Shown: piece by piece, positions 29,167-53,401 of the stretch
Numbering within the stretch: position 1 is the first letter of the stretch
Layout: each line of letters begins with the position of its first letter
Assembly: GCA_021647245.1 (NCBI GenBank)
Contig: JAKIVC010000008.1
Coordinates: 1-64,000 of the forward strand
Length of the DNA: 64,000 nt
Direction of reading: 5' to 3'
Origin: Gammaproteobacteria bacterium
Lineage (GTDB): Bacteria; Pseudomonadota; Gammaproteobacteria; RBG-16-57-12
The notes under the pieces: generated by a model
Database searches by the model: none
The model's input: only the letters and a program-made list of their open reading frames with translations
Told to the model about the DNA's origin: nothing
Translations under genes and position numbers: made by a program

Positions 29167-29223
29167 AACAGGTGAAAGTCCAAAAACCGCCGGATCTTTT
29201 TAAGGTTTCAGAGGTCTATCTAG

Positions 29224-29382: not shown

Positions 29383-29443
29383 CTAGCAGTCTGAACCAGT
29401 CTCGACTGAATGAACGTCCCCTTAATTACAGTGGAATTAGCCA

Positions 29444-35384: not shown

Positions 35385-35562
35385 CTCTTTAGCTTTGCAT
35401 GACGGGCGCTCTATATTGTGTAGAAAATGGCGGCTGGCTATATCTTAATTCGGTGATATTAAAGATGTTTTTGTTATGGCTGGAAGGTTTATACTGGCTG
35501 CTTTTATGAGGTGGAGTGTATCGGAATGGCTAGCTCTTCAGAAATTCCTATTGGATTGATGT

Positions 35563-37602
35563 GTGAATAAGCCATTAACATCAAAATATTCAGGTATCAG
35601 GGGCACATTGCTGGTCTTGGCCATTACGCTACTTACCACGATGAGCGCCCTCACTACACAATCTGGTGGCTGGCTGTATGATCTTTTTAACCGCCTCTCT
35701 CCACTGACCAATGAGCAGGGTTCATCGGTTGTTTTGGTGACAGCCTCACCCGAGCAGCTCTACGCGGATGATGCGCTGTGGCAAGTGGCCGTTGAAAGGC
35801 TGTTTTCCGCAGGTGCCAAAGGGGTTGTGTTTGGTTTTCAGCCCAAGGGGCTTTCTGGTGACTATTTCTCTGAGCTGTTCTCCAGTGGTGGGGTTATCTT
35901 GGCCCGACAGCTAGCCCGTGACCCGATCAGTGATCAGCTTTCTACCCTTGAGCCTTTGCCCTCATCCGTTGATAACGGGGAGATTACCTGGGGCGTGGTC
36001 TATATTGCAGACGACAGTGATGGTATCTACCGTAGCCACAAAAGCTCACAGACACGCTATACAACACTCGAACAGCTTGCCGCCATAACATTTGCCAGCA
36101 CACGGTATTCGTCACAAAACCCGCCGGGGGATTATTTGATAAATTTTCTCGCGGGGCGGGATGCGTTACCCCGAGTGACGATAGAGCGGGTTGTTGAGCG
36201 TGGCGTTATACCCGAACTGGTCTCTGGCAAGGTTGTGCTGATTGGCCTGCATGATGCCTACCAGCAAGTTGGCCTGCCCACACCTATTGGCAGTGGTCGT
36301 GATAGCTTATCGTTGCTGGAGTACCAGGGCTTTGCGGTGGATACGCTGTTGAATGCGCGCCCGATTCACCTTGCGCCCATCTGGCTGGTGCTGCTGCTAT
36401 TATGGGGTGCCGCGCTGTTAAGTTTAGTGTTGTTGCAGTGGGTTGGGGTGATGGTGGCAACGCGTATTATGGCGTTGATGCTGGTGTTGCACCTTATTTC
36501 TGCGACGGTTGCACTCGGAGTGTTTCTGCTCTGGATACCTTTGGCGGAGCTGCTATTTCTGCAAATAGTCATTTACGTGCTGCTGCTGCGCTCACAGGCG
36601 GTTAATCAGACGGTACAAATCTACAAAATGATAGCCAACCGCTCTTCAGCCAATGCGGTGGCGGGTGTGGCAACCAGTTTTTATGCCATAGAGGAGCACT
36701 GGTCGCGGGTTATTACACTGGTTAATCAGTTGTTGGATCTTGATCGGGTGATCTTTCTTGAGCGCGTTCAGGGAGATCATCGCGTGCGTGAGGTCAAGGC
36801 ACTGAATTGCAGCGTGAATGATATTGATGAAATGCGTCGTGATTATCTGCGTACCCCCTACAGCACCGCAATTGAACAGCGCTCGGTGCTGCTGTTGCAA
36901 CGCAACTTTTTGGCTAATGAGCAGGAGGGTGAGGTGCAATATCTCTCCCCCTTGATTTTTGCTGGCGAGGTGTTGGGTTTTTGGGCCTTCTCAATTAACC
37001 AACAAAAAGTAGGCTTGATTGCCGATTTTGAGCGGCGTATTGATGAGTTTTCGTTACAGATAGCGGAACTCCTTTATCACCGCCAGCAGTGGCAACAGCA
37101 GATGGCAGACGAACAGCGGATATTATCAAAATATCTGCGTCTTGAAGGGGGAGACCAAGTGAGCCGGGCACTCTCACAGATGCTGGCGCTGATGGATAAA
37201 CGCCTGCGTAGTTTTGAGGATGTATTTGCCGGTATGGGAACCGCCGCAGTGCTTTACGATCTGTTTGGCACGGTGTTACAGATTAATGCTGAAATGTCCC
37301 GCCTGGTGCAGGGTATGGCGTTGGCCGCTTACGACATGACCGCACTTGATATGATGGTCAGCTTAACGGGTGTTGATCTGGTTGAAGGGCGGCGCTACCT
37401 GCGCACGGTTATTGTCGATCAACAAAAGGTGACACTGGCCGTGACGCTGGGTGATGTGGACAAGCGAGCTTATATGCTGAGTATGCGTCCGCTCTTTCAC
37501 CAGAGTAAGGTGGACTATGTGAGTGATGAAGTGTTGCCGTTTGAAACAGTGGGTGTGCTGTTTGAGCTGATCAGTACGCCGACTTTACAGCACTCATCTT
37601 GA
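35563..37602 (+). CDS. CHASE2-domain membrane sensor without output domain
   Basis: A 679-residue protein with GTG start. An N-terminal membrane segment (residues 12-32) is followed by an extracytoplasmic CHASE2 domain (LYDLFNRLSPL, AGAKGVVFGF, FLAGRDALPRVTIERVVERG, SGKVVLIGLHDAYQQVG, LEYQGFAVDTLLNARP). Three C-terminal membrane helices follow (about 265-345), then a cytoplasmic GAF-like region (about 365-500) and a PAS-like region (about 555-665). No kinase, cyclase, EAL/GGDEF or phosphatase domain follows, so it probably signals by contact or regulates the polymer-synthesis proteins encoded next. It opens the six-gene cluster; the 178 bases upstream hold no gene. Confidence 0.8.
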   Translation: MNKPLTSKYSGIRGTLLVLAITLLTTMSALTTQSGGWLYDLFNRLSPLTNEQGSSVVLVTASPEQLYADDALWQVAVERLFSAGAKGVVFGFQPKGLSGDYFSELFSSGGVILARQLARDPISDQLSTLEPLPSSVDNGEITWGVVYIADDSDGIYRSHKSSQTRYTTLEQLAAITFASTRYSSQNPPGDYLINFLAGRDALPRVTIERVVERGVIPELVSGKVVLIGLHDAYQQVGLPTPIGSGRDSLSLLEYQGFAVDTLLNARPIHLAPIWLVLLLLWGAALLSLVLLQWVGVMVATRIMALMLVLHLISATVALGVFLLWIPLAELLFLQIVIYVLLLRSQAVNQTVQIYKMIANRSSANAVAGVATSFYAIEEHWSRVITLVNQLLDLDRVIFLERVQGDHRVREVKALNCSVNDIDEMRRDYLRTPYSTAIEQRSVLLLQRNFLANEQEGEVQYLSPLIFAGEVLGFWAFSINQQKVGLIADFERRIDEFSLQIAELLYHRQQWQQQMADEQRILSKYLRLEGGDQVSRALSQMLALMDKRLRSFEDVFAGMGTAAVLYDLFGTVLQINAEMSRLVQGMALAAYDMTALDMMVSLTGVDLVEGRRYLRTVIVDQQKVTLAVTLGDVDKRAYMLSMRPLFHQSKVDYVSDEVLPFETVGVLFELISTPTLQHSS

Positions 37603-37656
37603 TGGGGGCTGCGGTATGATTTTACTATTCAACGCAGTGTGTGGAGGGTAGCTTAG

Positions 37657-40600
37657 GTGGATTTTTTCCCACTACAGCTGTTTCCGCAAGGTGGTCTCTC
37701 CAGTTCGGTTATTACCACTGTTTGGGTGGGGGTGGCGGTTGTTGTTTTTTTCAACCTCCGCTTTGGCTGGGTGTTGTCGGGGTTGATCGTTCCCGGTTAC
37801 CTGGTTCCGCTGTTGTTGGTGAAACCGTGGGCTGCCGGGGCTATTCTATTTGAAGCGCTGCTCACCTATCTCATCGTCAGGCTCTATTCAGAGCACCTCA
37901 ACCACCCAGGATGGTGGGGAAGTCTGTTTGGTCGAGACCGCTTTTTTGCTTTTGTGCTGGCGAGTATTGTGGTGCGGCTGGTTTGTGACGGGCTTCTTTT
38001 CCCCTGGGTCGGATCGACCCTTGAACAGCAGTTTCAGATAAATTTTGCCTATCAAAGCAACCTGCACAGCTTTGGTCTGGTGGTCGTTGCGCTGATGGCC
38101 AACCAGCTCTGGAAGCCCGGAGTGCGGCGCGGCCTGATGCCGATGCTACTGACGATCGGTTTAACCTACTTGATTGTCCGCTATGGACTGATGGAGTTCA
38201 CTAACTTCAGCATTAGCAACCTCGGCTATATGTATGAAGGGATCGCCTCCAACATATTGGCATCACCCAAGTCCTATATCATTTTACTGGTTGCCGCTTT
38301 CATCGCTTCGCGGATGAACCTTCACTATGGCTGGGATTATAACGGGATTCTGATTCCGGCACTGCTGGCGCTTCAGTGGTATGACCCGATGAAAATCCTC
38401 GCCTCATTTGCAGAAGCATGGGTGATCTACCTCATTGCGTTGGCGCTCTTTAAAACCCCCTTGTTTAATAATGCCAATATTGAGGGGGGGCGTAAGTTAC
38501 TGCTGTTTTTCAATATCGGCTTTGTCTATAAGCTGGTGCTGGGCTATGTGGTGCTTGCCTGGTTCCCTGAGTTTAAAGTGACCGATAGTTACGCATTCGG
38601 TTACCTCCTGGCGACGCTGATGGCGTTGAAAATGCACGATAAAGATATTGCTGCACGTCTTACCCGTACCACCCTGCAAACATCGGTGGCGGGCGTATTG
38701 GTGGGCGGGAGTATCGGCTTTGCTTTGACATTTTTGCCGGTGTTCCACTGGTCTAAATCGAGCGATGTCACGGTGCAGTCGGCTGAGGTGAAGTCATCAT
38801 CTGATGTGGATTTGATGACACGCCTAAATCAAGACAAGGTGGTGCTTTATCAAAGCAGTAGTGGTGATGGCATGCAGGTGCCGTCGATTGCTGAAATTGA
38901 CCGCTTTAGTGAGGCGCTCAGCTATCTGGATAAGTACCGTATCAATCCAGATGAGCAGTATTTGATAGCAGCCAGAGGGTTGCTGGCCTCGTTAAATTAT
39001 CAACTGGAACGGGTGGATCAGCACTACCTCTACCTCTCTGAGTCTGGGCCGGTGCGGGGCTGGGGGATCTATCTCTATAACTTGAAATCGACCGGCTCGA
39101 TGCTGCTTGAGGTGCCGGCACCCCTGGACGAGAAGGGAACCATTGAAACCGCTGCCTGGCTGTTTGATCTGCTGGACGCTTCTGCTTTGGCGATTGCCGG
39201 TAGCCGACGTAAAATAAATTCGGATGGCAGCTCTGACGTATTACGCAACGCGCAGACGCTCTATCACGCCTTTCATCGTCACAACAATCGTTTGAATCTA
39301 TTGCAACTGCGTGGTTACACGCCGGAAACCATTCGAGCCCTCTCAGGTATTCGACAGGATGCCAACCTGCTGACTCTCGCAGAGCCAGAGAGTACCTTGT
39401 GGGTTAAAAGCACACTGCCGGAAGGGGTTGACCTGGTGCAGTTAAAAAACTTGTTGGGGAGTTACCAGCTTCACTGGGAAACCACGCCATTTGACAATCT
39501 GCAACGCACCGAAAGTCGCCGTGGTTTTGCTGAGCTTTTTATTAATCGTACCGACATGCGTCGCCTGATTACTCGCAGCATGCGCCTGGACGAGCACGTG
39601 CCCATCAATATCAATACGCAACGAATTGATGGTTACCTGCAAGAGTGGCTGGTGAGCGGCAAGGGGGCGATTGCTCCCCGGGGGAGTGGTGGCTATCAGG
39701 TTCCAAAACTGGAAGAGCTGCTCTTTTTTGATGAAGAGGTGATCACCCCGCTGTTGCGAGTGATGGAGCGCGAGTATGTCGATGGCGAGTGGCGCGATGG
39801 CGGGGTGAAAGCGCTGGCGGTGATCGCTCAGGCAGCGGCTGTATTTGATTATCAGATTGTGCGTTATCGCCACCAGCAGAGTGGTCAGGATTATCTTATT
39901 TTACGAGAAGATCCGGCGGCTGAAAAAATGCGCCACTGGGGGAGTTATGTCTTTCGCCTCGGTGAGAGTGATGATTATCTTATTCAGGTGCCGCGTCCGC
40001 TGTATGAGCATAACAGCTTTGAGTTTGGGGTCTCTATGTTTGAGCGCCTGAAGGCGCGGGTGTTACTGCTGGCGGGTACCCACCCCATTAGTAATCTGGA
40101 TGGCAGCTCGGATCTGATCCGTCTCTCCAATATCCGCAGCCTGTTTACACTGGTCAACCAGGTGGTGTTGCGTGAATCACGACAAGAGCCGCTGCTGGTG
40201 CTCCACAGTCGTGCCTATGGTGTGCGCAGTGATCTACCCATGCCCGATGCTGATTTACTATTAGCTTTTTACTCGGGAGCCAACCTTCAGGGTGGGCTGC
40301 ATCCCAATGCCGAGGCGCTGGTGGAGGTGTTGGCACAGGATGGTTTTAACTATCAGTTTGTTGATGGCAGTATCAGTACCTCGGGTTATGAAGTGGGCAG
40401 TGTGCCGCAATCGCTCTACCTTAATGCCAGCGTGAATAAGGATTTTGGCATTATTTGGGTATCCCCCAAAATCCGCGCCAGTTACCGCCAGCAGAGTGCC
40501 AACCGACAGCAACAAAAACAGTTTTTGGCGTTGGGCATTTCGACCACTGAAGTTGATGTGGCCTCACATCTGCCGTTATATCCTCTGCTCTCTGATCACT

Positions 40601-40896
40601 CTATTACGGCGGCGTTTCGCGGGGTGGTCAGTGACTATTTGCGTTATCAAAACATTGTCTCACTGCATCGCTTACAGCGTGAGTGGCCTCAGTTTAGTTA
40701 TCAGCACCTTGTGGATCGTGACTCAAGGCAGTCATTTTTGATGATTGCTTACAAGGGAGCTGTGGCATTGGTTAATTTGGCACCGCGTCGTATTGGTAGC
40801 GTGATTACGACGTTGAAGTCCCCGGTGGATGCCAGTGTCATTCAGCGCTATCTGGAAGTTCGTAGCACCTGGCTATTGCTTCGGGAGGACGGATGA
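37657..40896 (+). CDS. Tandem CapC/PgsC-like membrane protein fused to two hydrolase-like domains
   Basis: A 1079-residue protein; the GTG start has GGAGGG 8 bases upstream. The N-terminal ~370 residues are polytopic and contain two CapC/PgsC-like modules: the first with RFGWVLSGLIVPGYLVPLLL and LLTYLIVRLYSE, the second with LHYGWDYNGILIPALLALQW. CapC is the membrane partner of the poly-gamma-glutamate ligase CapB. The rest carries two tandem copies of an alpha/beta domain (about 430-590 and 720-890), each with a WG.Y...L...…L..VP.PL segment and a (N/S).DGSSD(V/L)(L/I)R motif. A third copy is the separate gene at 43342. These domains recall the N-formylglutamate amidohydrolase/PGA-hydrolase fold but lack the expected metal-ligand His. 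The gene overlaps the next by ATGA. CapC homology is good; catalytic roles are inference. Confidence 0.8.
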   Translation: MDFFPLQLFPQGGLSSSVITTVWVGVAVVVFFNLRFGWVLSGLIVPGYLVPLLLVKPWAAGAILFEALLTYLIVRLYSEHLNHPGWWGSLFGRDRFFAFVLASIVVRLVCDGLLFPWVGSTLEQQFQINFAYQSNLHSFGLVVVALMANQLWKPGVRRGLMPMLLTIGLTYLIVRYGLMEFTNFSISNLGYMYEGIASNILASPKSYIILLVAAFIASRMNLHYGWDYNGILIPALLALQWYDPMKILASFAEAWVIYLIALALFKTPLFNNANIEGGRKLLLFFNIGFVYKLVLGYVVLAWFPEFKVTDSYAFGYLLATLMALKMHDKDIAARLTRTTLQTSVAGVLVGGSIGFALTFLPVFHWSKSSDVTVQSAEVKSSSDVDLMTRLNQDKVVLYQSSSGDGMQVPSIAEIDRFSEALSYLDKYRINPDEQYLIAARGLLASLNYQLERVDQHYLYLSESGPVRGWGIYLYNLKSTGSMLLEVPAPLDEKGTIETAAWLFDLLDASALAIAGSRRKINSDGSSDVLRNAQTLYHAFHRHNNRLNLLQLRGYTPETIRALSGIRQDANLLTLAEPESTLWVKSTLPEGVDLVQLKNLLGSYQLHWETTPFDNLQRTESRRGFAELFINRTDMRRLITRSMRLDEHVPININTQRIDGYLQEWLVSGKGAIAPRGSGGYQVPKLEELLFFDEEVITPLLRVMEREYVDGEWRDGGVKALAVIAQAAAVFDYQIVRYRHQQSGQDYLILREDPAAEKMRHWGSYVFRLGESDDYLIQVPRPLYEHNSFEFGVSMFERLKARVLLLAGTHPISNLDGSSDLIRLSNIRSLFTLVNQVVLRESRQEPLLVLHSRAYGVRSDLPMPDADLLLAFYSGANLQGGLHPNAEALVEVLAQDGFNYQFVDGSISTSGYEVGSVPQSLYLNASVNKDFGIIWVSPKIRASYRQQSANRQQQKQFLALGISTTEVDVASHLPLYPLLSDHSITAAFRGVVSDYLRYQNIVSLHRLQREWPQFSYQHLVDRDSRQSFLMIAYKGAVALVNLAPRRIGSVITTLKSPVDASVIQRYLEVRSTWLLLREDG

Positions 40897-43349
40897 GACG
40901 CTTAAGACGACTCATAATGTGGCTGTTACTGCTGGTTTTTGGTGGCTGGTTGCTGCTTGAGGCACTGGCGGTTTATGACGACTATCAGCAGGCCAAATAC
41001 CGCTCGGCATGGATTGATCAAGGGGTGAGCAGCACCGGTTATGTACTCACAGAGCAGCCGTGGTTGGAGTTTGAAATTCCTGATCAACAGTATGTGATTC
41101 GTGTTTTAAGCAATGCCAGTTTGCGCCACGACCAGTGGGTGATGGATGATGAAAAATACCACTATCAAATTGAGTATCAGATTCTGGATGATGATGGCAA
41201 AGTGTTGTCGGAGTCGCTCTATTATCAACGCAGCCATGTTTCTCAGCCAAAAGAGGATGAGCTGCTGGGGGTGATTCCACGGCAGTTTTATACCGAGAGT
41301 GATCTGCTACCCGCTGATGGGCGGGTGATGATGTTAAATTTGCACAACCTGCAACAGCCGAGTCGACTGCGGCTGCGCCTCTATAGCCAGGATCCCGGGA
41401 TCGTGGATGTGATTGTAAGGTGTTATCTCCGTGAGGGTGTGGCCGATCACAAACTGGCTTATCAGTGGACGAGAACGAGTGAGCGTAAGCGCGACTACCT
41501 GGCAAGGGGTAGTATCTATGATCATGGGCTGCTGACGGATTTAGAGAGACGCAATCTATTAAAAAACAGATGGCAGCCGATGGGTCCGAAGGGGGTGCGC
41601 GGGAAGGATTATTATGACCGAACCCTCTATACATTGAGAGACTATGATGAGCTATTTGAGCTACAGGGGGAGGATATTCAACCCTCTGGCCTGTGGGTGG
41701 ATCGTTGGGTAAATGGCATGGTTAGCATCCCTTACGGTGGTGGTGAAGTTGAACTGCTGTTTGCCGCACTCGACCCCAACCAGCCGATGACGGGAGAGGT
41801 GCACCTCCACTGGTCGGGTCCCGGTATCAATAATCAACAGCAATTTGTGGTGCCCGTTACGCAAGGGGAGGGACGCTTCCAGGCAGAACTGCCAAACGGT
41901 ATTGTGGAGATCCGTAGTCAATTACCATTAAAGGTACAGGCTTACTTGACCACTGCTGCTCAGCGGCTGGAGATTACCCCGGAGGTCAGTTACTTGCGTG
42001 GTTATGCTATTTCAGCAACCGAGTGGGTTGAGTTTCCTATTGAACATTATGACGTGCAACCGATGCCCGCACGTTTTGATTTCCGCCGCAGTGTCATGGA
42101 TCCCGCAGTGGTGGATAATCGCCCGGCGGTTATTGATTATGAGGTGCTGAATCACCATGGCGAAGTGTTGCAGCGTGGCTCTATGGATTATCAATTCCAC
42201 TTCTCCCACTATGATCGCTCAATGGAGCGTGAGTGGGGTCATTACCTGTCACTGCCACAGCGCTACTATTTTAATTTTGATACCCAGGCCTCTGTGGTGC
42301 GTTTTCGCAGCTCAAATCCGTTGCTGGTGAGTGGTTATAGTCGTCCCTACGACTTACCGCTGCTTACCCGTGTACCAATGGACTATTTTGGCCAGCATAA
42401 AGATGAGCAACCGAGCTGGTTTGTCATGTTGCCTGCAAGCCGTGAGACGCTGGTAAAAGAGTCGCGGGATTTTCTGATGCGCCTACAGAGCGCTCCGCCA
42501 CAGGAGGACCCACGGTTGTTGAGGGGAGAGTATCAATGGTTGGCGTACCGCCCTGATGGGGAGTGGCTGGCCCGTGACCTGTTACTACCCCGCGAGCCGG
42601 GCTTACCACTGCAACCCCATTCGCTGGGGGCGGTTTTTCATCGCTTGCAAGCCAATAAAAACTATCGCTTAGCGTTGAAGGGTGCGGAGGGGCTGACGCA
42701 GCTTTACCCTACGCTGTTTTATCAGCGTTACCGTGAAGAGCCGATGACGCTGCAAATTTTACTTAATGGTGTGGTGTGGTATCAGGTGGAGGTCGCACAA
42801 CTTCGTGGTGAGCTGCAACTGCCGATGCTGCCCGCTGGCGAGCATCAGCTGGCGATTGTGGCCGGTGCCGAAACTGAGCTGTTTCTCAACTATATTCAGG
42901 GTGATGAGCCACTGATTAAACGCTTGAGTAATCGCTTTGAGGGGTCACGTTTGAGCTTTAACTACACCAAGCCGTCAGGGGAGGCGGCAATCCTCTCAGG
43001 GCTTTGGCATGTGGCGGCACATCGTCAGGCTGCAACGCGCCTTGAGGTGACTATTGAGGTAGGCGAACGCCCCAAAAACCAACCGCTACCCGGTTGGACG
43101 ATTCATCGAAGAATCTACCAATTGCAGCCAAACAATCAACAGCGTACCGCACTCTGGGGGACTCAGCGGCAGTGGCTGGATGGTGGGCAGCGATTTTTCA
43201 TCGCCATGGAAAATGATATGCCTGCGGGAGAGTATCGGATCACCTTGCAACAACCTCCGGAAAGAGAAGGCTATATCAGCTTGAGCCAACTGAAGCCGGG
43301 CGCGGTGGCACTGGAGCGGCGATTTAATGAGGCGGCGGACTATGAATAA
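40893..43349 (+). CDS. Membrane-anchored periplasmic protein of the CapBC-like cluster, function unknown
   Basis: An 818-residue protein with one N-terminal transmembrane segment (residues 6-26, RLIMWLLLLVFGGWLLLEAL after basic residues), so the bulk is periplasmic. The rest is predominantly beta-rich (repeated short strands such as YQIEYQILDDDGKVLSESLY and VIDYEVLNHHGEVLQRGSMD, which look like repeats of one another) and I recognise no family. The position between the CapC-like and barrel genes suggests a periplasmic bridge or adaptor for the exported polymer. It overlaps both neighbours, so it is translationally coupled. Confidence 0.65.
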   Translation: MRRLRRLIMWLLLLVFGGWLLLEALAVYDDYQQAKYRSAWIDQGVSSTGYVLTEQPWLEFEIPDQQYVIRVLSNASLRHDQWVMDDEKYHYQIEYQILDDDGKVLSESLYYQRSHVSQPKEDELLGVIPRQFYTESDLLPADGRVMMLNLHNLQQPSRLRLRLYSQDPGIVDVIVRCYLREGVADHKLAYQWTRTSERKRDYLARGSIYDHGLLTDLERRNLLKNRWQPMGPKGVRGKDYYDRTLYTLRDYDELFELQGEDIQPSGLWVDRWVNGMVSIPYGGGEVELLFAALDPNQPMTGEVHLHWSGPGINNQQQFVVPVTQGEGRFQAELPNGIVEIRSQLPLKVQAYLTTAAQRLEITPEVSYLRGYAISATEWVEFPIEHYDVQPMPARFDFRRSVMDPAVVDNRPAVIDYEVLNHHGEVLQRGSMDYQFHFSHYDRSMEREWGHYLSLPQRYYFNFDTQASVVRFRSSNPLLVSGYSRPYDLPLLTRVPMDYFGQHKDEQPSWFVMLPASRETLVKESRDFLMRLQSAPPQEDPRLLRGEYQWLAYRPDGEWLARDLLLPREPGLPLQPHSLGAVFHRLQANKNYRLALKGAEGLTQLYPTLFYQRYREEPMTLQILLNGVVWYQVEVAQLRGELQLPMLPAGEHQLAIVAGAETELFLNYIQGDEPLIKRLSNRFEGSRLSFNYTKPSGEAAILSGLWHVAAHRQAATRLEVTIEVGERPKNQPLPGWTIHRRIYQLQPNNQQRTALWGTQRQWLDGGQRFFIAMENDMPAGEYRITLQQPPEREGYISLSQLKPGAVALERRFNEAADYE

Positions 43350-44208
43350 TCGCTGGTATTACAGCTTGTTGCCACTGTTGTTGTTTGCTACAGCAAGTAA
43401 CGGGGCAGCGACCCTCTACCAACAGTGGCAGCAGAATCGCCATTCGAATTTCAGCATCCCGTTACAGAGTGATTATCGGCTGGCAATTGAGCTGTTTGAT
43501 CAGTTATTGCAAGGAGTAGAGCCAACCAAATCCCAGCGTGAACGCTGGAGAGCGATCGGTATTTCAATACAGTCATGGGGTGACTACTGGCTACTGATGG
43601 ATGATCCGGAGCGTCCGTCAGGGCATGGATTTTATGTTATCTGCAAACAGTGCAATAGCGCCCTGGTTTTGCAGGCACCCCACGGTGATAGTGATCTGAA
43701 TACCGCTAAAATCACACTGGCTCTTCTGGCGTTGGGTGGTGTGGCCGCCGTAGCGCTTAACAGCGCACCGCGCACCCTTGATGACGGGATGGTGAAGAGT
43801 GATTTGGCAAAACTTAACGGTACCCTGTTTAATGCATTCAGTGCCGCTGTGGCGCATCAAAAGCAGCTCACGAGGGTTGTTCAGCTGCATGGCTTTAATC
43901 AAAAACGGCGGCAGAGCCGTGTAGCAGCCAGTGCAGATATTATTTTGAGTAATGGTACCCGGCTCAGTTCGCCTTCACTTAGAGAGCTACAGAGTTGTCT
44001 GGCAGATCATCTAGGGGTCGTGCTGGCCTATCCCCAGCAAGTCAAAGAGCTGGGCGGGCGGCGCAATCAGCAGGGAATTCTACTGCGGTCGGCGGGTTTT
44101 AAGGGCTTTATCCACTTGGAGATGGCCTACCCACTACGGCAGCGTCTGGCGCTGTCGGGTGATGCGCAACGGGCGCTGCACCGCTGTCTAGTCGGTGGCA
44201 CAACATGA
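43342..44208 (+). CDS. Secreted hydrolase-like protein, PGA-hydrolase/N-formylglutamate-amidohydrolase-like
   Basis: A 288-residue protein; the ATG at 43342 is chosen for the signal peptide MNNRWYYSLLPLLLFATASN. The core LVLQAPHGDSDLNTAKITLA followed by a VAAVALNSAPRT segment aligns with the two domains of the CapC-like protein (VPAPLDEKGTIETAAWLF with ALAIAGSRRK). Only this copy keeps the His in PHGDSD, a plausible metal ligand. It may trim or release the polymer in the periplasm, a role comparable to CapD or PghP. The family link is by motif pattern and not certain. Confidence 0.6.
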   Translation: MNNRWYYSLLPLLLFATASNGAATLYQQWQQNRHSNFSIPLQSDYRLAIELFDQLLQGVEPTKSQRERWRAIGISIQSWGDYWLLMDDPERPSGHGFYVICKQCNSALVLQAPHGDSDLNTAKITLALLALGGVAAVALNSAPRTLDDGMVKSDLAKLNGTLFNAFSAAVAHQKQLTRVVQLHGFNQKRRQSRVAASADIILSNGTRLSSPSLRELQSCLADHLGVVLAYPQQVKELGGRRNQQGILLRSAGFKGFIHLEMAYPLRQRLALSGDAQRALHRCLVGGTT

Positions 44209-47200
44209 AGTTGATCACTCTACTACTGCTCTACGGGTTTTTGGTTAATACGGCTTCTGCTCAGTTTGATGAGGCGACACTGCCCTATGCCGCATCGTTT
44301 AACCCGGTGATTTATTGGGATAATTTTGAGGGCGCGCCCTATCATGTTTCAGGTCCTTTGCCGGGAAAAAATGATCCGCAGGGGATCGCCTGGGTTTATC
44401 TGGAGAAGCAAGCGCTGGTGCTGCAACTGCCAGCAAACAAGCAGCTGCGAATCGATTTGGCGAAAGCCGGACAGCGGGAAAATATCCAGATTTGGGGCTC
44501 CAATGGCTCACTGGCAGCGCGTGAATTGTGGTTACGGCCCGCCGCCCAAGAGCGTACCGCCTACCTTGCCGCTGCATCAGCTCCAAGGTTGATTATTATT
44601 GAATCAGTCAACCAGCAGGCCATCTCACTGGCGCTGTTTTTATCCCGCACGGAACAGCAGAGCGCCACACAGCATTATCGCCACACCTTGAGTCTGCCCC
44701 GCCTGACTCAGGCCGCCCTGCGCCAGGGTGTGAAGCAGAGTGAACAGGGTTTTTACCACCTACCGCCTCAACAGCGGCTGCGCTTACCGCTGGTTGGCCC
44801 CCAGCGCTTGATGATAGAAGAGCATCTCTACTACGCTGACGAGCAGACCACCCGTCGACCAAGCTACCAGATCGATGTGCATATAGCAGGACTGGCCGCG
44901 CAACAATTTTTTATCAGAGGGCGGATGAACAGTCGCCTGCCAAGTTATGTTAATGGCAAGCTGCAAACACTGGGTTATCGACAGCAACACTATCTGGACA
45001 TTCCGTCGGGTGAACACCTGATCGAAATATCGAGTAGCCATGATCTGTTATTGCGGTTGCGCGCTAGCTCAGGATCAGCGCTGTTATTGCCAAAACTGAA
45101 TGGAGCCACTTTAGTCAGTGATGAGGTCTCGGAATCGCTACCGGCGCTGACTCGACAAAACTATCCGCTGGTGGAGGCGTGGGTAGCGCGACAGCTGGCA
45201 GAGGCTACGCGGGTACGGGTGGCAGATGAGCTGCTGGCGTGGTTGGAGCGCAGCACTTTGCCGATATACCAGGCACTGGTTGCAAGGCTATTGCGGGATG
45301 AGTTTTCATACGCCGATCTGGCACCCTTTGATACCGATAGTGGTGAAACCTACCAGCGCAGTTTTGTGCCGGTGGCGCTGGCTCCGCTGGCGGGTGAATC
45401 GCCGCTGTGGCGTTATCCCCAGCACCAGGCTATTGCACAACTCTCGGCAATCAACCGTGGACGGTTTTTTGAGCTCTCTTCGGCTGAGGGGAGTCAACTG
45501 GCCTTTTCATTGGCCGCGCAGCGCCCGCAGGATCGTCTGCGTGTTGCTATCGATGCGCAAAGCATACAGCAGCCACTGGTACTGGAGTTACGAGATCAAA
45601 GTGAGGTGTTACAGCGGATTAAAATTGACCCCGCCTGGCGCACTTGGCAAAAGCGGCAGCGACATCAACCGGCGCTGGCTTCACTGAAACAGTTAAAAAG
45701 CACCACCATGGGGGGGCGTTACGGACTCTATCAAACTGCAGCACCTTACACACCGGTCGCTACAGCCGAGTTCGAGCTGCCGGCACAACAGCGCAACGTG
45801 CAACTTCATCTGCTGCCACAGTCGGTAGCGCCGCAACAACTGTTTATCAACCTGCAACAGTTGAATAGCCGAGCAGGGCGAGTGACCCCTGCTCACTATA
45901 TGGAATTGATTGGCAGAATGGATAGTGCATCAAGAGTGGCGCTTTTCTGGCAGGCCCTTCAAGGTGAGTCCCCCGCGCTGAATGCAGGGCAGCCATCGGT
46001 TGTTAAGCAGTGGTCGGCGGTTATTCGACAGTTGCGTGATAGCCAGCAGCGTTATCTCTATCGACTGGATCGCTCACCACTGCCACCCTTGGCGGATGAA
46101 ACTGAGCCACAGGCCGAGCTGCATCAAGCTGCCGTTGTTGCCGAACAAAAGGGTGACTGGCTGGCAGCACTGGAGGCTTGGGGGGCGTTGCAGCGCCACA
46201 GTAGTGATCTGGATTTACAGCAGGCGGCACTGCGCGGCAAGGCGACAGCACTGGTTGCCCTCTCGGAACACCCGCTGGCTGAGCGTGAATTGATGCGTTA
46301 CGCCTTTTTACACCCCGAGCAGTCGCTGCGAAAAATGGCCCGAGAGCAGTTGTTGGCGTACTACGCACTATGGGGTGATGAGGTTGATTACGATGCGCTG
46401 CTGGTGGCGGCTGCATTGCACGAGCAGTCTGATGAACTGCTGTTTAAGGTGCTGGATCGCTGGGCATCGCAGGGCAGAATGGAGGCGCTCTTTACGGTGG
46501 GCTTGGTTTTTTCTCCTGCAAAGGCTCTTAACCCGTTGTTGATTGCAACAAGTTATCAGCTGCAATGCTGGTACTGCTTTGATGTACTATTACAGCGCAT
46601 AACAGACCCGATGTTAGCCGCTTATTGGCAGGGTTATAAATCGATGTGGTGGGGCCGTATTTCACAGGCTGCCGCGCAGTGGAAAACAGCGGGAGAGGCC
46701 GGTGAGAGGCTCTTAAAACAGCTGCGTCAAGGTGAGGTGAGTCGCTTATTTGCAGCGAGGGCTCCTGTCTCGGCAGAAAGTGTATTGAGATGGCCTGAGT
46801 TTTACCAAAAAACCCCTGGGCCACGGCACTGGATCTCCGCCGGCCCGCAGGCGATCACCTCCAGTTCCGGCGCAGTGAAAGTGTATAACCGGGTAAATGA
46901 CCGTTCAGGTATCGCCTACCTGATTGAATCAGAGGAGTCGCTGAAAATGAGGGTGCTAGGGCCTCGTAAATTACGACTAAAAGTCCGTCTACTGCACCCA
47001 ACAGATGATCCGAATCAGTTGCTGAATGGCTGGCTGAAAATGAAAAGCAATCACTCAGTGTGGCAGTACCCGCTACTCGATAGCCGTCCAGCCAGCACAC
47101 TGACAATCGAAGAGACGTCACTCGGCTACCCTGGTCAGGCTCACCTCATTGAGTTTGAGGTGAGTGCCGGGATAAATGATCTCGAAATTCAGGTGCCAGG

Positions 47201-49244
47201 CTATCAGGTGTTATTGGATCTGGAGATGGATGCGCCGCAGCGGCCGCTGGCAAATTATCCCGATCCCCAGCGGGCTCTCCAGTTGATCGATAATTTACCG
47301 GCACTGCCCCGTGGTCGAGTGATCTCCACGGCTGAATCGCTGTTGACTCCTCAGCCGCAGCGCTGGGGTGAACATGAGCAGAGCGATACAGCTGTACAAC
47401 AGTTGGTTCGCCTGTTGTGGTGGACGGAACGCAAGCCAGAGCATAATAGTGATGGCGTGGTACTCGCTGCCCAGCTACAGCAGCAGTACCCACAACACGC
47501 TTTAGTGAGGAGGCTGGCACGAAAAATATTACAGCGAGGCAAGTGGCAACGGCAGAAAAACATCTTGCAGAGTGCTGGAAAGCAGAGGGTTTCCCAGCCA
47601 CGTTGGAACCCGGAATCTCCTCGCCTGCGGGTGCGTAATGCACTGTTGCCTCCCCTTCATGGGCATGAGTTTCGCCTGTTTGGGTCTAATGTCTGGGGTC
47701 TCTCCAGCGCGGCGGCTACGCCGATCTACTGGCAAGTAGCGTTAACATTGGAGGGGCTTAACAGCCAGCGGCAGCCACTTAAAGTCATGCTGCAACTGGA
47801 TGAAAAAGCGCCCGTGGAGGTGGAGCTGACCCCCAATGATCCCCACCATTTAGAGGCGTTTTCTCTGCCTGCTGGTACGCATCAGTGGCGGCTCTGGGTT
47901 GCGGAGAGTGTCGCGGGTCAGTCGTTGCGGGTTGGCTTGCATCGGGGTGAGTCAACGGAGTTGCATTCGCCATGGCCAGTGGCAAGTGAGCGCAGCTATT
48001 TTGTGAGTACCCCGCAAGAGCCGCTACAAATGCGTTTGAAGGGGCCGCAGATGTTGAAGGTGGTTGAGCGGGTGGCAGCCCGTGATCACGTTTACTATCA
48101 CCCGCTGAATGAGGGGTGGCACACCCTTGAGTTGCCTCCCCGGTCGGGTGCGCCGCGTGCGCTGTTACGGGTGTTTTCGCTGCAAGTTGATAATAAGTGG
48201 CAAGCGCTTAAGCGTCGTTATCAACCTCGGGTGGTTGAAGCACCCGCACGGTTTGAGCCGTTGCCAGATGAGCTATTGGTGGAGCCTTTTGAATACCTGT
48301 CACCGTTTGAACCGGGTGGTTATGAGGAGGGTAGTGAACACTATTATGCACTGTTCAGGCAGCGCCGATTCAGCGATGAGTTTTCGGAGCAGGAGCGTTT
48401 TCTTGCCATTGGCGGGCAGCACCGTCAGCACCATTCGGCCTTGCAGCTCTATCATCGTCTCTCTGCAGAGCTGCGCTTTAGGGAGCTTGGTAACCCCAGT
48501 CTGGCACTTGAGGGGCGTGTGGAGTGGGTGCCACAACAGAGCCAGTGGCGTGGGAGTGCACAGCTAAAAAGTTACTGGCAAAAACCGGACTCACAAAATG
48601 GCCAACTGGAGTGGGCCAACTATCTGGATGCGACAGTGTATCGTGTGTACCGTTTAACGCCAAAAAGCTACCATATACCGCGATTCACACTGTTTGCACG
48701 CCATATGAGCCTGGGTGCTAACCCCTATCAACGGGGTCGTTTGGATCAGGATATTTTTACCGAATACAAGGCGCAGCACCGCTATGGCTGGCAGTTTGCG
48801 GATAGTTATACCTACCAACCCTGGCTGGATACGGCGTGGACACTTCGCGGCTGGCTGAGAAGTAATGACAGCTTGCAGGATCGCCTGCTGGATGTGGTGG
48901 GTATCTCTGCTCGCTGGCGACAGATGCTCGGCGAGGGTGAGTTGGCAGTGACACTATCTCAACGCTATTTTTTCTCTGATGATGAGCGCAGAACCCGCTT
49001 CTCCAGTACCACGCTTTCGCTACAGAGTGAGTGGGGGCAGTGGAGTGATGGCTGGAATCTCTGGCAGTTGCAAGGGGGGATTAATTACCAGCTGCAAAAA
49101 GGGGATTTCAGTTTTATGTTGCAGCTGAGCTGGCAGGGTCTGCAAGGGCGAGGCTATCGTGATGCCCTGCCGGGTGAGGTTTTCTTTAAGCCACTGCGTC
49201 AGTGGCGTTTGCCAAGTGTTGGTTATAGCGAGGGTGAGCAATGA
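44205..49244 (+). CDS. Large secreted protein with TPR-like middle and probable outer-membrane beta-barrel
   Basis: A 1679-residue protein with signal peptide (residues 1-20, KLITLLLLYGFLVNTASA). Residues of about 625-865 are helical repeat-like (QKGDWLAALEAWGALQRHSS, RGKATALVALSEHPLAEREL, then similar helix pairs), recalling TPRs. The C-terminal ~320 residues consist of amphipathic strands with alternating aromatic and polar residues (LRFRELGNPSLALEGRVEWV, WRGSAQLKSYWQK, FSFMLQLSWQGLQGRGYRD) and the order TPR then barrel resembles PgaA, BcsC and PelB exporters. I infer an outer-membrane export channel for the cluster's polymer. The final residue is not Phe, and the barrel should be tested by structure prediction. 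ATGA overlaps link it to both neighbours. Confidence 0.6.
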   Translation: MKLITLLLLYGFLVNTASAQFDEATLPYAASFNPVIYWDNFEGAPYHVSGPLPGKNDPQGIAWVYLEKQALVLQLPANKQLRIDLAKAGQRENIQIWGSNGSLAARELWLRPAAQERTAYLAAASAPRLIIIESVNQQAISLALFLSRTEQQSATQHYRHTLSLPRLTQAALRQGVKQSEQGFYHLPPQQRLRLPLVGPQRLMIEEHLYYADEQTTRRPSYQIDVHIAGLAAQQFFIRGRMNSRLPSYVNGKLQTLGYRQQHYLDIPSGEHLIEISSSHDLLLRLRASSGSALLLPKLNGATLVSDEVSESLPALTRQNYPLVEAWVARQLAEATRVRVADELLAWLERSTLPIYQALVARLLRDEFSYADLAPFDTDSGETYQRSFVPVALAPLAGESPLWRYPQHQAIAQLSAINRGRFFELSSAEGSQLAFSLAAQRPQDRLRVAIDAQSIQQPLVLELRDQSEVLQRIKIDPAWRTWQKRQRHQPALASLKQLKSTTMGGRYGLYQTAAPYTPVATAEFELPAQQRNVQLHLLPQSVAPQQLFINLQQLNSRAGRVTPAHYMELIGRMDSASRVALFWQALQGESPALNAGQPSVVKQWSAVIRQLRDSQQRYLYRLDRSPLPPLADETEPQAELHQAAVVAEQKGDWLAALEAWGALQRHSSDLDLQQAALRGKATALVALSEHPLAERELMRYAFLHPEQSLRKMAREQLLAYYALWGDEVDYDALLVAAALHEQSDELLFKVLDRWASQGRMEALFTVGLVFSPAKALNPLLIATSYQLQCWYCFDVLLQRITDPMLAAYWQGYKSMWWGRISQAAAQWKTAGEAGERLLKQLRQGEVSRLFAARAPVSAESVLRWPEFYQKTPGPRHWISAGPQAITSSSGAVKVYNRVNDRSGIAYLIESEESLKMRVLGPRKLRLKVRLLHPTDDPNQLLNGWLKMKSNHSVWQYPLLDSRPASTLTIEETSLGYPGQAHLIEFEVSAGINDLEIQVPGYQVLLDLEMDAPQRPLANYPDPQRALQLIDNLPALPRGRVISTAESLLTPQPQRWGEHEQSDTAVQQLVRLLWWTERKPEHNSDGVVLAAQLQQQYPQHALVRRLARKILQRGKWQRQKNILQSAGKQRVSQPRWNPESPRLRVRNALLPPLHGHEFRLFGSNVWGLSSAAATPIYWQVALTLEGLNSQRQPLKVMLQLDEKAPVEVELTPNDPHHLEAFSLPAGTHQWRLWVAESVAGQSLRVGLHRGESTELHSPWPVASERSYFVSTPQEPLQMRLKGPQMLKVVERVAARDHVYYHPLNEGWHTLELPPRSGAPRALLRVFSLQVDNKWQALKRRYQPRVVEAPARFEPLPDELLVEPFEYLSPFEPGGYEEGSEHYYALFRQRRFSDEFSEQERFLAIGGQHRQHHSALQLYHRLSAELRFRELGNPSLALEGRVEWVPQQSQWRGSAQLKSYWQKPDSQNGQLEWANYLDATVYRVYRLTPKSYHIPRFTLFARHMSLGANPYQRGRLDQDIFTEYKAQHRYGWQFADSYTYQPWLDTAWTLRGWLRSNDSLQDRLLDVVGISARWRQMLGEGELAVTLSQRYFFSDDERRTRFSSTTLSLQSEWGQWSDGWNLWQLQGGINYQLQKGDFSFMLQLSWQGLQGRGYRDALPGEVFFKPLRQWRLPSVGYSEGEQ

Positions 49245-52200
49245 ACTCAGCTGACGACATTAAAGCCATTTTGTTGGCAGATAGAAACGTGCTGTTGTTG
49301 CAGATTGATGAGCCTAAGCTACAGAAATTATTGGATGCTTTTTTTCGCTGGCTGAAAAAACAGTCGGAAAAAGGTCATGATGATGAATCCTATCAGGATT
49401 GGTTGCTGCGCCGTTTTAGTGACTTTTTGCTTTCAGAACTGAAAAAAACTGAGGCCGAGCTGAAACAGCGTGAGCAACAGGCCACTCTTTTCCAAAGCCG
49501 CTTTCGCCATGCGGCCACAGATGAAGAGCGTCGCCACCACATTCTGGAATTTGCCAGCACCTTGGGGCGTGATGCAAAAAAACTGGAGCAAGACCGCAAA
49601 GCCTTCGAACGCTGGTTTGGTGAAGATACGGTGCGTGAGCGTTACTTTAACCGTCTGATTGCCGCAGAGCGTTATTTGCTGCTGTTGATTGAAGCGCGAG
49701 GGCGCATTGCGGTGGCGTGGCTGGGAAGTACGGATCAGCTGACAGCTATCCGCCAGCGCTGGCAAGTGTTGGCACTGCCAGCCCAATGTGACTCACTGTT
49801 GGGTTATAGCCGGGATGCGCGGATTAAACAGTCGCTGCTAAAAAGTATCTGGCAGGTGATCGAGGCGATTCCCGCCGCTGATCGTCATGAGGTTATCGAA
49901 CAAAATTTCATCAAGCGCTTGGTGCAGATTGCAGAAGATCGCTCAGCAACCGTGTGGGTGCAGTGCGAGGCACTGCGCTCGATTAAGCAACTCTCTGAGA
50001 CGCTGTTTTCTGAACTGGCGGCTGAACGGCTGGAGAACCCCTCACCGGATGATGACTTGTTTGTGCGCCGCTGTGTCGTCCAGTTACTGCCGTGCGAAGC
50101 GGGTGTGGCAGTGCACTACCGGTCACACGAACAGTGGGCGGTGCAAGATAGCAGCCCCTATGTGCGCCAAGCCTTGTTGCAGCGCATTGTACAACATGGC
50201 CATATCGATTCCGCAGAACATTATGCCGCCTTGTTGCAACATGACCCCGAGCCATCGGTGCGGGTGGCGGCACTCTGCCATCTGGCGGAGTTACTGAGTG
50301 AGCCGATGTGGCAGCAACAGGCGGCGTGCTGGCTGAGCTTTGTGCTGCAAAATGAGCCACAGCCGCAGGTGCTGCGTGCGGCACTCAAGGTGTTGCCGGC
50401 GTGTCACCAGCAGCTGCTTAACCACGGGCCGCAACAGGCTAAAACATGGCTCACTCCGTTACTGCTGGCACTGGAGAATCTTCACTTTTCAGCCCCCTCA
50501 CTGGCGATTAGAACCTATACCGCGCAGTGCCGAGAGCATTTGTGGTGTCAAGTTTCAGTAGAGCGCATGGCTGCATTGAGCTTGCTGCAAACAGAGTTGT
50601 CGAGCCTGCCTGTGGGGCGACGCGTGCGGATTAAACGCAGCAAGTTGCCTGCACTTGATGCCTTGGAACTGGGGCGTATTCTGGCGTTGATCGCGCAGCA
50701 TGAACACGGCTTTGATATCAGCTTTACACGCCGTTACCTGTTAATCACCCGGGGCGAACACTTTGCCCGTCGATTGTGGCGTATTCTTCACGAGTTTTTC
50801 CACCCATCCACAGATAAGCGCCAAGGGTTTCCCCACACCATTGGCCGTCATTACCACGGCACCCTTTACGCCCCTTCCGGGGTGTTGGCAGAGCAAGCGC
50901 AAACCACCGTGCCGGGGGAGCCGCTGCACATGGCGGAGGAGGGTGGCTGGCGCAACTATCTGCCGCTGGTGGATGAGCTTCTCTCCGCCTGTGATCAGGA
51001 TAAAGTAACGGTAATCCGTCGCGTCAGCAGTGCCGGTATTACCGAAATCACCCCACCGCGCAGCCTACTTAAACGCCTCTGGGTGATGCAGCAGTTAACA
51101 CGGCGTTTTAGTCAATATGCGGCACTGCGTAACTGGCAACCGGGTGATGGAGCGGCGTGTGAAGCGTATGTGAATGCTATCCGGGCACTGGGCTTTAAGG
51201 TCCGTTTCATACCGCACCAATACGATAATCAGCAGTGGCGGGCCGATCCGGCGGTGAGCCGCTTCTTCCCGGTGGCAATCCCCTTTTCTGGTTACGACTG
51301 GAGTGATCGTATCAGCGGTTATTTCTTTTCTATTTATGAGAACAGCCTACAACATCTCGCCATCGTGCTGGCGGTTGGCTGTGCCGGTTTTTTTGCCCGT
51401 CATGTCTACCTGACAAGGCGAATTCGTACAGCACGTAAAAAACTCCCCTTGGTGATCGGTGGCTGGGGAACCCGGGGTAAGTCCGGTACCGAGCGCCTTA
51501 AAGCTGCACTATTTAATGCGCTGGGCTATAACGTGGTCTCTAAAACCACTGGCTGTGAGGCGATGTTTGTCTACGCCAGAGGCTTCTCTGAATTGCGCGA
51601 AATGTTTCTGTTTCGCCCCTACGATAAAGCCACCATCTGGGAGCAGGAGCAGCTGTTGCAAATATCAACGGGGCTGGGTGCCGAAGTGTTTTTATGGGAG
51701 TGCATGGCGCTAAATCCCGATTTTGTCACTATTCTTCAGCGCCAGTGGATGAATGATGATATTGCCACGATTACCAATTGCTATCCAGATCACGAAAATT
51801 TGCAGGGGCCAGCAGGGATCAACATTCCACAAGTGATGCAGCGTTTTATTCCCCGTAACAGCTGCCTGGTAACCAGTGAGGAGAGTATGTTGCCTCTGCT
51901 GCGTGATGAGGCCAGCGCACAGCAGAGCCGGCTACGTCATGTCGGGTGGCTGGAGGCTGCACAACTCACCCCCGATGTTATGCAGCGGTTTCCGTATCAG
52001 GAGCACCCTTATAACATTGCACTGATTCTGGCGTTATGCGACGAGTTGGGGGTAGATCATGACTTTGCGCTGAAAGAGATGGCCGACCGGGTAGTGGAAG
52101 ATTTAGGGGTTTTGAAATGTTACCCCCCGGCTCAAGTCGACGGACGACGCTTGGAATTTATTAACGGCATGTCTGCCAATGAACGCTTTGGCACACTGGA

Positions 52201-53401
52201 TAACTGGCAGCGTGTGGGCCTGCAGGCGCAATCGCGAGAGTGGAGTGATGAGGGTTGGATTGCAACGGTGGTTAATAACCGCGCTGATCGAGTGGTTCGC
52301 TCTCAGGTCTTTGCCGAAATAATCGTTAACGATTTACAGCAGGATTGTTGCTATCTGATCGGCACCAATCTGGATGGTTTACAGAGCTATATTCAGCTGG
52401 CATGGCATAAGCTGCTCAGAGACTTTACGCTTTGGGGGGGTACTCATACACCCGAGGCAGCAATGGTGAGTTGGCAGCAGTGGGCTGAACGGCTGCGTAT
52501 TCCGACCTCGCGCAGTCAGCTGGATGGGCGCTTGCAGGCGCAGTTAGCTGATCTGCAACTGCTGCCCTATGCAGAGCGTCTGAAAGCCTGCTGGGAGCAA
52601 CCCACGAAATGGCTGGAGATACTACCCACAGAGCTCCCCTGCCGTCAGGCGTTAGTCGAGAGTGCCGAGCAACTGCTTAGGAAGTACCAAGCATTTTGTG
52701 ACTTTTCTGCGGCGCTGCCGAAAGCTACCGATGCCAGTCAGCGTCACCACCTTGATCAGCAAGCCAAACAGCTGCTGGGTGAGTGGTTTAAGGGTAAATT
52801 TGTAGTGATTGAGGATGCCCGTGCCAGTGGTGAACAGGTGATCAGGCGGATTATCGATAGCACCCCGCCCGGCCTGTTAGCCCGGGTGATGGGCTTGCAG
52901 AATATCAAAGGTACCGGCCTCGATTTTGTCTATCGATTACAGGCGTGGGAGGCGTGTTATCGCAGCTGTGAAAAGGCTCGTTCCACTGAGGTCGAGCAGC
53001 TTCGCAGTGGCTTAGCCGCTTTGGCAGACTTTCACGAATTTGGACAACTGAGCGAACAGCACCTCAACCAAACATTAGAGGTACTGCGTGGCTCGCCGCT
53101 GGCACAGACCGAATCGGTACATGCGGAGTTGGAAGTGATCGCCAGCCGTCACCACGAAGCGATGAAAACGCTACAAAAAGAGTTGCAGCAAGGGCCGATT
53201 AATAGCTTGTTTGAGAAGGTGGTTGATGCGGTCGAATCATTTGCCGATGCCGGAGATGCGGTTCGCCGCCGCAAACGCGCCAATCAAATATACAAAGACC
53301 TGGTGAATGAGCAGATCAGCAGCGGCAAGGCAGCACGCCTGCTAAAGGCGTTGAACAGCCGGCAAAAAGGAGGCTGGCTGGCACGAGGCGGTAGCTTTTA
53401 G
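49241..53401 (+). CDS. HEAT-repeat / CapB (PgsB)-like Mur-ligase fusion
   Basis: A 1386-residue protein. Residues of about 45-120 are charged and coiled-coil-like, and 170-460 contain HEAT-like helix pairs (SSPYVRQALLQRIVQHGH, PEPSVRVAALCHLAELL). A hydrophobic segment at 704-722 anchors the C-terminal domain, which matches CapB/PgsB: P-loop GWGTRGKSGTERL (Lys747), VVSKTTGCEA, ECMALNPD (Glu820), NCYPDHENLQGP, FINGMSANERFGTLDNWQRV and NNRADR. In Bacillus, PgsB joins glutamates by ATP-dependent ligation as part of the PgsBCA complex. The ~380 residues after the ligase have no recognised family. The fold and motifs are clear; that the substrate is glutamate is inference. The stop at 53401 ends the cluster. 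Confidence 0.82.
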   Translation: MNSADDIKAILLADRNVLLLQIDEPKLQKLLDAFFRWLKKQSEKGHDDESYQDWLLRRFSDFLLSELKKTEAELKQREQQATLFQSRFRHAATDEERRHHILEFASTLGRDAKKLEQDRKAFERWFGEDTVRERYFNRLIAAERYLLLLIEARGRIAVAWLGSTDQLTAIRQRWQVLALPAQCDSLLGYSRDARIKQSLLKSIWQVIEAIPAADRHEVIEQNFIKRLVQIAEDRSATVWVQCEALRSIKQLSETLFSELAAERLENPSPDDDLFVRRCVVQLLPCEAGVAVHYRSHEQWAVQDSSPYVRQALLQRIVQHGHIDSAEHYAALLQHDPEPSVRVAALCHLAELLSEPMWQQQAACWLSFVLQNEPQPQVLRAALKVLPACHQQLLNHGPQQAKTWLTPLLLALENLHFSAPSLAIRTYTAQCREHLWCQVSVERMAALSLLQTELSSLPVGRRVRIKRSKLPALDALELGRILALIAQHEHGFDISFTRRYLLITRGEHFARRLWRILHEFFHPSTDKRQGFPHTIGRHYHGTLYAPSGVLAEQAQTTVPGEPLHMAEEGGWRNYLPLVDELLSACDQDKVTVIRRVSSAGITEITPPRSLLKRLWVMQQLTRRFSQYAALRNWQPGDGAACEAYVNAIRALGFKVRFIPHQYDNQQWRADPAVSRFFPVAIPFSGYDWSDRISGYFFSIYENSLQHLAIVLAVGCAGFFARHVYLTRRIRTARKKLPLVIGGWGTRGKSGTERLKAALFNALGYNVVSKTTGCEAMFVYARGFSELREMFLFRPYDKATIWEQEQLLQISTGLGAEVFLWECMALNPDFVTILQRQWMNDDIATITNCYPDHENLQGPAGINIPQVMQRFIPRNSCLVTSEESMLPLLRDEASAQQSRLRHVGWLEAAQLTPDVMQRFPYQEHPYNIALILALCDELGVDHDFALKEMADRVVEDLGVLKCYPPAQVDGRRLEFINGMSANERFGTLDNWQRVGLQAQSREWSDEGWIATVVNNRADRVVRSQVFAEIIVNDLQQDCCYLIGTNLDGLQSYIQLAWHKLLRDFTLWGGTHTPEAAMVSWQQWAERLRIPTSRSQLDGRLQAQLADLQLLPYAERLKACWEQPTKWLEILPTELPCRQALVESAEQLLRKYQAFCDFSAALPKATDASQRHHLDQQAKQLLGEWFKGKFVVIEDARASGEQVIRRIIDSTPPGLLARVMGLQNIKGTGLDFVYRLQAWEACYRSCEKARSTEVEQLRSGLAALADFHEFGQLSEQHLNQTLEVLRGSPLAQTESVHAELEVIASRHHEAMKTLQKELQQGPINSLFEKVVDAVESFADAGDAVRRRKRANQIYKDLVNEQISSGKAARLLKALNSRQKGGWLARGGSF

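Follow-up and report, generated by a model that had tools for sequence, protein, structure and literature searches.

A six-gene CapB/CapC locus of a gammaproteobacterium as a probable variant of poly-gamma-glutamate synthase, with one active-type and two degenerate copies of a PghP-like domain

What does a Gram-negative bacterium make with the two core proteins of poly-gamma-glutamate (PGA) synthesis when both are built into much larger proteins and encoded together with four other genes? PGA is the nylon-like polymer of Bacillus capsules, and most of what is known of its synthases comes from Gram-positive bacteria. The question is raised by a locus of six genes (positions 35563-53401) in contig JAKIVC010000008.1 of a gammaproteobacterial assembly (GCA_021647245.1), of which we analyzed positions 1-64,000 of the forward strand (the window; all coordinates are window positions). 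A sequence-only reading of the window had proposed an envelope-spanning system that makes an amide-linked polymer and exports it through its own outer-membrane channel. We searched for homologs of the locus among relatives of the window's genome, across the class (369 genomes) and across the phylum (398 genomes). Our results indicate that the locus is probably a Gram-negative variant of PGA synthase. Its product would be a polyamide, probably of gamma-glutamate, and it would include a dedicated hydrolase in the periplasm as well as two pseudo-hydrolase domains that bind the polymer.

The six genes, all on the plus strand, are:

35563-37602, plus strand: gene 1, open reading frame of 679 amino acids (aa)
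37657-40896, plus strand: gene 2, open reading frame of 1079 aa
40893-43349, plus strand: gene 3, open reading frame of 818 aa
43327-44208, plus strand: gene 4, open reading frame of 293 aa
44205-49244, plus strand: gene 5, open reading frame of 1679 aa
49241-53401, plus strand: gene 6, open reading frame of 1386 aa

Going from gene 1 to gene 6, the junctions are a 54-bp gap followed by overlaps of 4, 23, 4 and 4 bp, in agreement with the co-directional genes and four overlapping junctions described before. A scan for promoters and terminators gave no clear excess above shuffled sequences.

The ~1,080-aa protein that includes the tandem CapC, encoded by gene 2, was present in ten genomes from four families and two classes; five of the carriers belong to one small-genome family of another class. 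The order of genes 1 to 6 is whole in the window and in genomes G001, G065 and G145, and it is the same in G301, G413, G492 and G500 as far as the ends of the contigs allow. Relatives that keep this order have 16-81% protein identity to the window. In G409 the order diverges past gene 3, and in G571 the locus is fragmented. A genome-neighborhood search, which the sequence-only reading had proposed, recovered the same set in ten genomes. The ratio of nonsynonymous to synonymous substitution rates (dN/dS), determined from two congeners with dS near saturation, was ~0.09-0.17 across all six genes. Purifying selection acts on each of them, which supports a PGA synthase, as does their loss as one block in another congener (see below).

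Gene 2 encodes a tandem CapC with about 12 membrane helices and a long C-terminal extension. Two stretches match PF14102 (E = 9.4e-43; 145.9 bits, cut-off 27), so the tandem CapC noted earlier is found above the curated cut-off, and full-length relatives of gene 2 have 37-81% identity. The extension appears to be periplasmic, judging from the charge around the last membrane segment and from the secretion of stand-alone relatives. Gene 6 consists of a HEAT-like N-terminal part, a membrane segment (residues ~706-724), a CapB/PgsB core of the Mur-ligase type and an alpha-helical tail. The core matches TIGR04012 over residues 716-1052 (E = 5.4e-62) and, in an alignment with four other CapB proteins, keeps the motifs GTRGKS, KTTG, ECMA, DHxxxxGP, NxRADR and NIKG. 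Both the two CapC matches and the CapB match with its intact motifs support a PGA synthase. The core elements are:

37726-38130, plus strand: CapC repeat 1 of gene 2 (PF14102, E = 8.2e-26)
38293-38658, plus strand: CapC repeat 2 of gene 2 (PF14102, E = 2.6e-19)
51383-52396, plus strand: CapB/PgsB catalytic core in gene 6 (TIGR04012 match, 213.2 bits)

Gene 6 had been described as a HEAT/CapB fusion with CapB as its C-terminal domain. The CapB part of that description stands, and HEAT is detected weakly, under its cut-off (PF13646, E = 0.0012). Nor is CapB simply C-terminal: an insertion of ~190 aa breaks the core ahead of the conserved NIKG strand, and the helical tail follows it.

What the remaining parts do was addressed by profile comparison, which revealed one undescribed domain (domain X) in three copies, two in gene 2 and the third as gene 4:

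38839-39456, plus strand: domain X copy 1, gene 2 residues ~395-600 (hhalign score 144.5 against the domain-X profile; truncated)
39574-40536, plus strand: domain X copy 2, gene 2 residues ~640-960 (hhalign score 133.9 against the domain-X profile)
43327-44208, plus strand: gene 4, secreted stand-alone domain X (H119, D123, H188, E265 and R271 intact)

Extra domains in the CapC protein had been recognized before; their identity with the domain of gene 4 had been missed. The domain-X profile matched that of PF05908, the family of the PGA hydrolases PghP and PghL. With the characterized phiNIT1 PghP included, the hhalign score was 37.9, and 200 column shuffles gave no more than 22.6; when PF05908 was limited to its bacterial members, the score was 40.3, and 100 column shuffles gave no more than 24.5. 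Four unrelated profiles scored 13.7-16.4. FGase (PF05013), a distantly related family, was rejected as the nearest family, with a weaker score of 24.3.

The residues of the active site are in register between the two families (His, acidic, His, Glu, Arg). H119, D123, H188 and E265 of gene 4 align with PghP residues of established role, H40, E45, H103 and E165 (PMC6506827), and R271 sits at +6 from the Glu, the same spacing as Arg171 of PghL. The acidic residue is Asp (D123) in domain X where the metal ligand of PghP is Glu. H119, D123, H188, E265 and R271 are invariant in all eight stand-alone copies. Domain X differs from PghP and PghL in having no Pfam match and in being secreted or fused within a synthase locus, whereas PghP is a phage enzyme. 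The earlier description of gene 4 as a secreted hydrolase-like protein can thus be narrowed: the protein is related to PghP, and the case for an amide-linked polymer becomes stronger. From its residues, gene 4 is a candidate zinc-dependent gamma-glutamyl polymer hydrolase. The match to PghP, with residues in register, is further support for a PGA synthase.

The two copies fused to CapC have lost these residues. In the nine fusions compared, H119 of copy 1 is replaced by Ala, Lys, Ser or Asp and H188 by Arg (9/9); in copy 2, H119 and H188 are both replaced by Arg and E265 by Ser (9/9). Three of the four metal-site His positions in the fused copies therefore hold Arg. Because metal-binding and catalytic residues are missing, the fused copies cannot be metal hydrolases of the PghP kind. 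They would be conserved for another purpose, most simply the binding of a polyanion. If so, domain X links CapC-type proteins to polymer recognition, and the presumed conversion to binding in every CapC fusion is a falsifiable prediction.

Domain X was found in all ten genomes with the fused CapC, including G409, which retains a domain X away from the locus. It was absent from three genomes with a single CapC (G190, G289 and G368) and from the congener that has lost the locus (G002). This co-occurrence with the fused CapC also supports a PGA synthase. In one further genome, G369 (L037, ~862-2238), a stand-alone domain X protein that resembles a lipoprotein lies just downstream of what appears by eye to be an mnmE-like gene; the fusion profile gave no CapC match in this genome.

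That two of the three copies of domain X are dead could also be read in another way. The locus might encode a machine for envelope maintenance or sensing in which CapB and CapC no longer have synthase activity, and the PghP-like domains would act on peptidoglycan or on the PGA of neighbors. The HEAT fusion and the large beta-rich proteins suggest a scaffold, and the presence of domain X in G369 without a CapC match fits as well. Nonetheless, the motifs of CapB for binding nucleotide and substrate are intact, and dN/dS is lowest for gene 6. We regard this explanation as improbable.

Compared to the PgsB-PgsC-PgsA(-PgsE) or CapBCA(E) synthases of Bacillus, the locus has in common a CapB-type Mur-ligase-like enzyme with conserved motifs and a CapC membrane protein. 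It differs in that CapC is duplicated and joined to a pair of dead hydrolase domains, CapB carries HEAT-like and helical parts and an insertion, CapA is missing from the locus, and very large periplasmic and secreted proteins are added. As had been stated before, there is neither a CapA (PF09587) gene nor a glycosyltransferase among the six genes. For CapA this does not extend to the whole genome: a PF09587 member is encoded elsewhere in the window's genome (G000) and in G001. No such member was found in four near-complete carriers (G065, G145, G409 and G413). Because CapA is lacking in the locus and in these carriers, the system is unlikely to depend on it as a partner. Given the missing CapA, and given that both core proteins score under the equivalog cut-offs of their families, we consider the locus a variant and not a member of the PgsBCA type.

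The class survey also turned up five further genomes with an ordinary single CapC. In the cap loci of three Gammaproteobacteria (G190, G289 and G368), the CapB and CapC genes are likewise adjacent, and CapB is 30-31% identical. These loci differ from the one in the window in that CapC has one repeat (186-225 aa) and the third gene encodes 380-393 aa. We tried this third gene as a relative of genes 2-5 and found no similarity. On plasmid pCHRO.01 of Chroococcidiopsis thermalis, pgsB and a two-repeat pgsC lie next to a stand-alone domain X. There, domain X is unfused to CapC, and the genes that follow are of HlyD-type, metallophosphoesterase and BamA-type, in place of genes 3 and 5 and the HEAT fusion. 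This neighborhood is additional support for a PGA synthase. Apart from the Chroococcidiopsis domain X, no relative of the locus was found on plasmids, and none on viral contigs.

Several results weigh against the identification of the locus as a PGA synthase. Both core proteins fall below their equivalog cut-offs (gene 2, 74.6 against 96.45 for TIGR04011; gene 6, 209.7 bits against 222.7 for TIGR04012), and CapB-type ligases of unknown substrate exist. The hhalign probability for domain X and PghP was moderate (46-74% with larger alignments), and was 17% when the gene 4 orthologs alone were compared to a small PF05908 set. There was no Pfam match to gene 4 at E ≤ 0.1, or to three orthologs and two stand-alone relatives at E ≤ 1. 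The structure prediction and fold search that the sequence-only reading had called for did not help: an AlphaFold model of gene 4 from a 6-row alignment had a pLDDT (predicted local distance difference test) of 50 and no usable match, and the C-terminus of gene 5 reached a pLDDT of 33, with no usable model. The fold of domain X was left unconfirmed because the usable alignments were shallow. The C-terminus of gene 5 also had no Pfam or PDB match, and no barrel was confirmed in it. Finally, the sole membrane segment of gene 6 lies directly ahead of CapB, and the HEAT part could sit on either side of the membrane.

Some of these results would be expected of a synthase with the same architecture and a different amide-linked product, either built from another amino acid or formed by gamma-glutamyl modification of a glycan or lipid in the envelope, with domain X cutting that bond. 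In favor of such a product are the scores of CapB and CapC under the equivalog cut-offs, the position of domain X outside PF05908 with Asp in place of the Glu of PghP, and the periplasmic domains in the fusion and the very large genes 3 and 5, which are unlike any PGA locus. On the other hand, the partner hydrolase is nearer to PGA hydrolases than to FGase or any other profile tried, and the domain X of Chroococcidiopsis adjoins a gene annotated as pgsB. We consider a different product rather unlikely, and a PGA-type polymer remains the reading we prefer.

For a PGA-type polymer, the parts suggest the following path. CapB of gene 6 would use ATP as a Mur ligase does and link amino acids at the cytoplasmic face, the likeliest being glutamate attached through its gamma-carboxyl group, and the tandem CapC of gene 2 would be the exit through the inner membrane. 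The two fused PghP-like domains would receive the emerging polyanion in the periplasm, binding it and no longer cutting it, and gene 4, secreted and with an intact PghP-like active site, might trim or release chains. Transport of the polymer through the periplasm, and probably through the outer membrane as well, would fall to genes 3 (anchored) and 5 (very large and secreted), and gene 1 would respond to a signal in the envelope.

No curated family matched genes 3, 4 or 5 above its cut-off. Gene 3, conserved in 8 genomes, has a single N-terminal membrane anchor (hydrophobic segment 4-22), a large beta-rich periplasmic part and no Pfam match. Gene 5 has a signal peptide, a repeat-rich middle with a weak BamD/TPR-like match (TIGR03302, E = 0.018) and a conserved C-terminal region of ~300 aa. 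It is like BcsC and PgaA, the exporters with TPRs and a barrel, in size, signal peptide, repeat-like middle and proposed role in export. It differs from them in having no similarity to BcsC_C beyond noise (20.7, compared to a shuffle maximum of 18.1) and no Pfam or PDB match. NfrA_C showed no relationship to gene 5. The strand periodicity of the C-terminus (12-17) was slightly above that of shuffled sequences (9.5-10.6, standard deviation ~2.2). Export through an outer-membrane barrel in gene 5 was thus not confirmed in four tests (AlphaFold, Pfam, PDB, and periodicity with BcsC_C), and the barrel is putative, a possible one. In sequence searches of the PDB, neither domain X nor the CapC fusion, gene 6 or the C-terminus of gene 5 had a significant match. 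In G413 (L041, 7342-12963), the relative of gene 5 is longer (1,873 aa) and by eye seems to contain a SPOR-like insert, possibly a peptidoglycan-binding module.

A bolder proposal is that the locus is dedicated to secreting a polyamide across the whole envelope, from arginine-lined decommissioned hydrolases on the exit protein, to a living hydrolase, to a giant outer-membrane exporter. We hold this tentatively, as somewhat short of an even chance. If true, it would stand to amino-acid polymers as BcsABC and PgaABCD stand to polysaccharides. The main reading, a rebuilt PGA synthase, would if true be a previously unrecognized means by which bacteria with two membranes produce and handle a PGA-like polymer. 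The six-gene set is a concrete candidate, with testable parts, for a PGA-type polymer crossing two membranes in a Gram-negative cell, and tandem CapC with domain X could serve as a marker for such polymers in uncultured bacteria.

Homologs of PgsB and PgsC are widespread, with 250 bacterial species, and Fusobacterium nucleatum has been cited as the first Gram-negative polyglutamate producer (PMC4497714). CapB and CapC in a Gram-negative bacterium are therefore not new in themselves. What is new is the fusion architecture, the PghP-like domain with its dead copies, and the conserved set of six genes. We found no description of the locus in the literature searched, which was open-access only, and a description elsewhere is possible. 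The most similar-sounding set is the sfz cluster of iron-oxidizing bacteria, also of six genes, and the locus might accordingly make the matrix of a stalk or sheath. The equal number of genes, a regulator in first place, several unknown proteins and the five carriers in one small-genome family of another class are in line with this. The sfz cluster encodes a type-2 glycosyltransferase that has an EpsE-like domain (sfz2), a GH10-like protein (sfz4) and an SH3-CotH protein (sfz6) (PMC8250860). The gene lengths differ, and none of the six genes here matches sfz. We rejected the sfz/sfb stalk-formation cluster on domain content, there being no counterpart of the type-2 glycosyltransferase (sfz2) or SH3-CotH (sfz6), and it seems very improbable that the product is a stalk or sheath. 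A prior description of the same six genes with another product would have counted against the sequence-only reading; the sfz cluster is a different set.

Gene 1, which had been called a CHASE2 protein, does match this sensor-like extracytoplasmic domain (PF05226, E = 3.9e-16), and has membrane helices and a GAF/PAS-like cytoplasmic part. Its relatives are longer (869-934 aa), and several end in a weak match to a histidine-kinase ATPase (HATPase_c; E = 4.9e-4 in L022, 0.006 in L020 and 0.074 in L042). This domain is absent from the 679-aa proteins of the window's genus. In four genomes a receiver gene (PF00072, E down to 1.5e-24) stands between genes 1 and 2: directly after gene 1 in G145, G492 and G500, and in G413 ahead of gene 2, near the contig edge. 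Because relatives keep the kinase-like end and a receiver gene, a two-component regulator was probably the older form, and the window's genus probably lost the kinase end.

The six genes have been lost together in congener G002:

35490-53302: block missing as a unit in G002, with both flanks kept and ~86% identical

Of gene 6, the final ~33 codons and the stop remain at the G002 junction. With this remnant and both flanks present, the difference is best read as a clean deletion of the ancestral locus and not an insertion in the lineage of the window.

The surroundings of the locus contain several other features. A tRNA gene (Rfam RF00005) at 35310-35381 lies ~110 bp upstream of the G002 deletion junction, and the corresponding tRNA of G002 reads as tRNA-Gly(ccc). 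G001 has another gene order upstream of the same locus. An FKBP-type peptidyl-prolyl isomerase (53514-54191) follows the locus in the genus, including G001 and, with the locus deleted, G002; because no such gene is apparent after gene 6 in G065 or G145, it is probably only a neighbor. A DUF2461 gene (32874-33560) is cut to two pieces of ~40 and 28 codons in G002 (L072, C108 near 6069), another deletion within a few kb of the locus deletion. Farther upstream, an inverted repeat (29219-29389 and 31563-31733; 171 nt, 99% complementary, 2,173 nt between the arms) flanks a ChaN/PDZ gene (29444-30688). Pieces of it match two places in G001, and it is therefore probably a dispersed repeat or the end of a mobile element.

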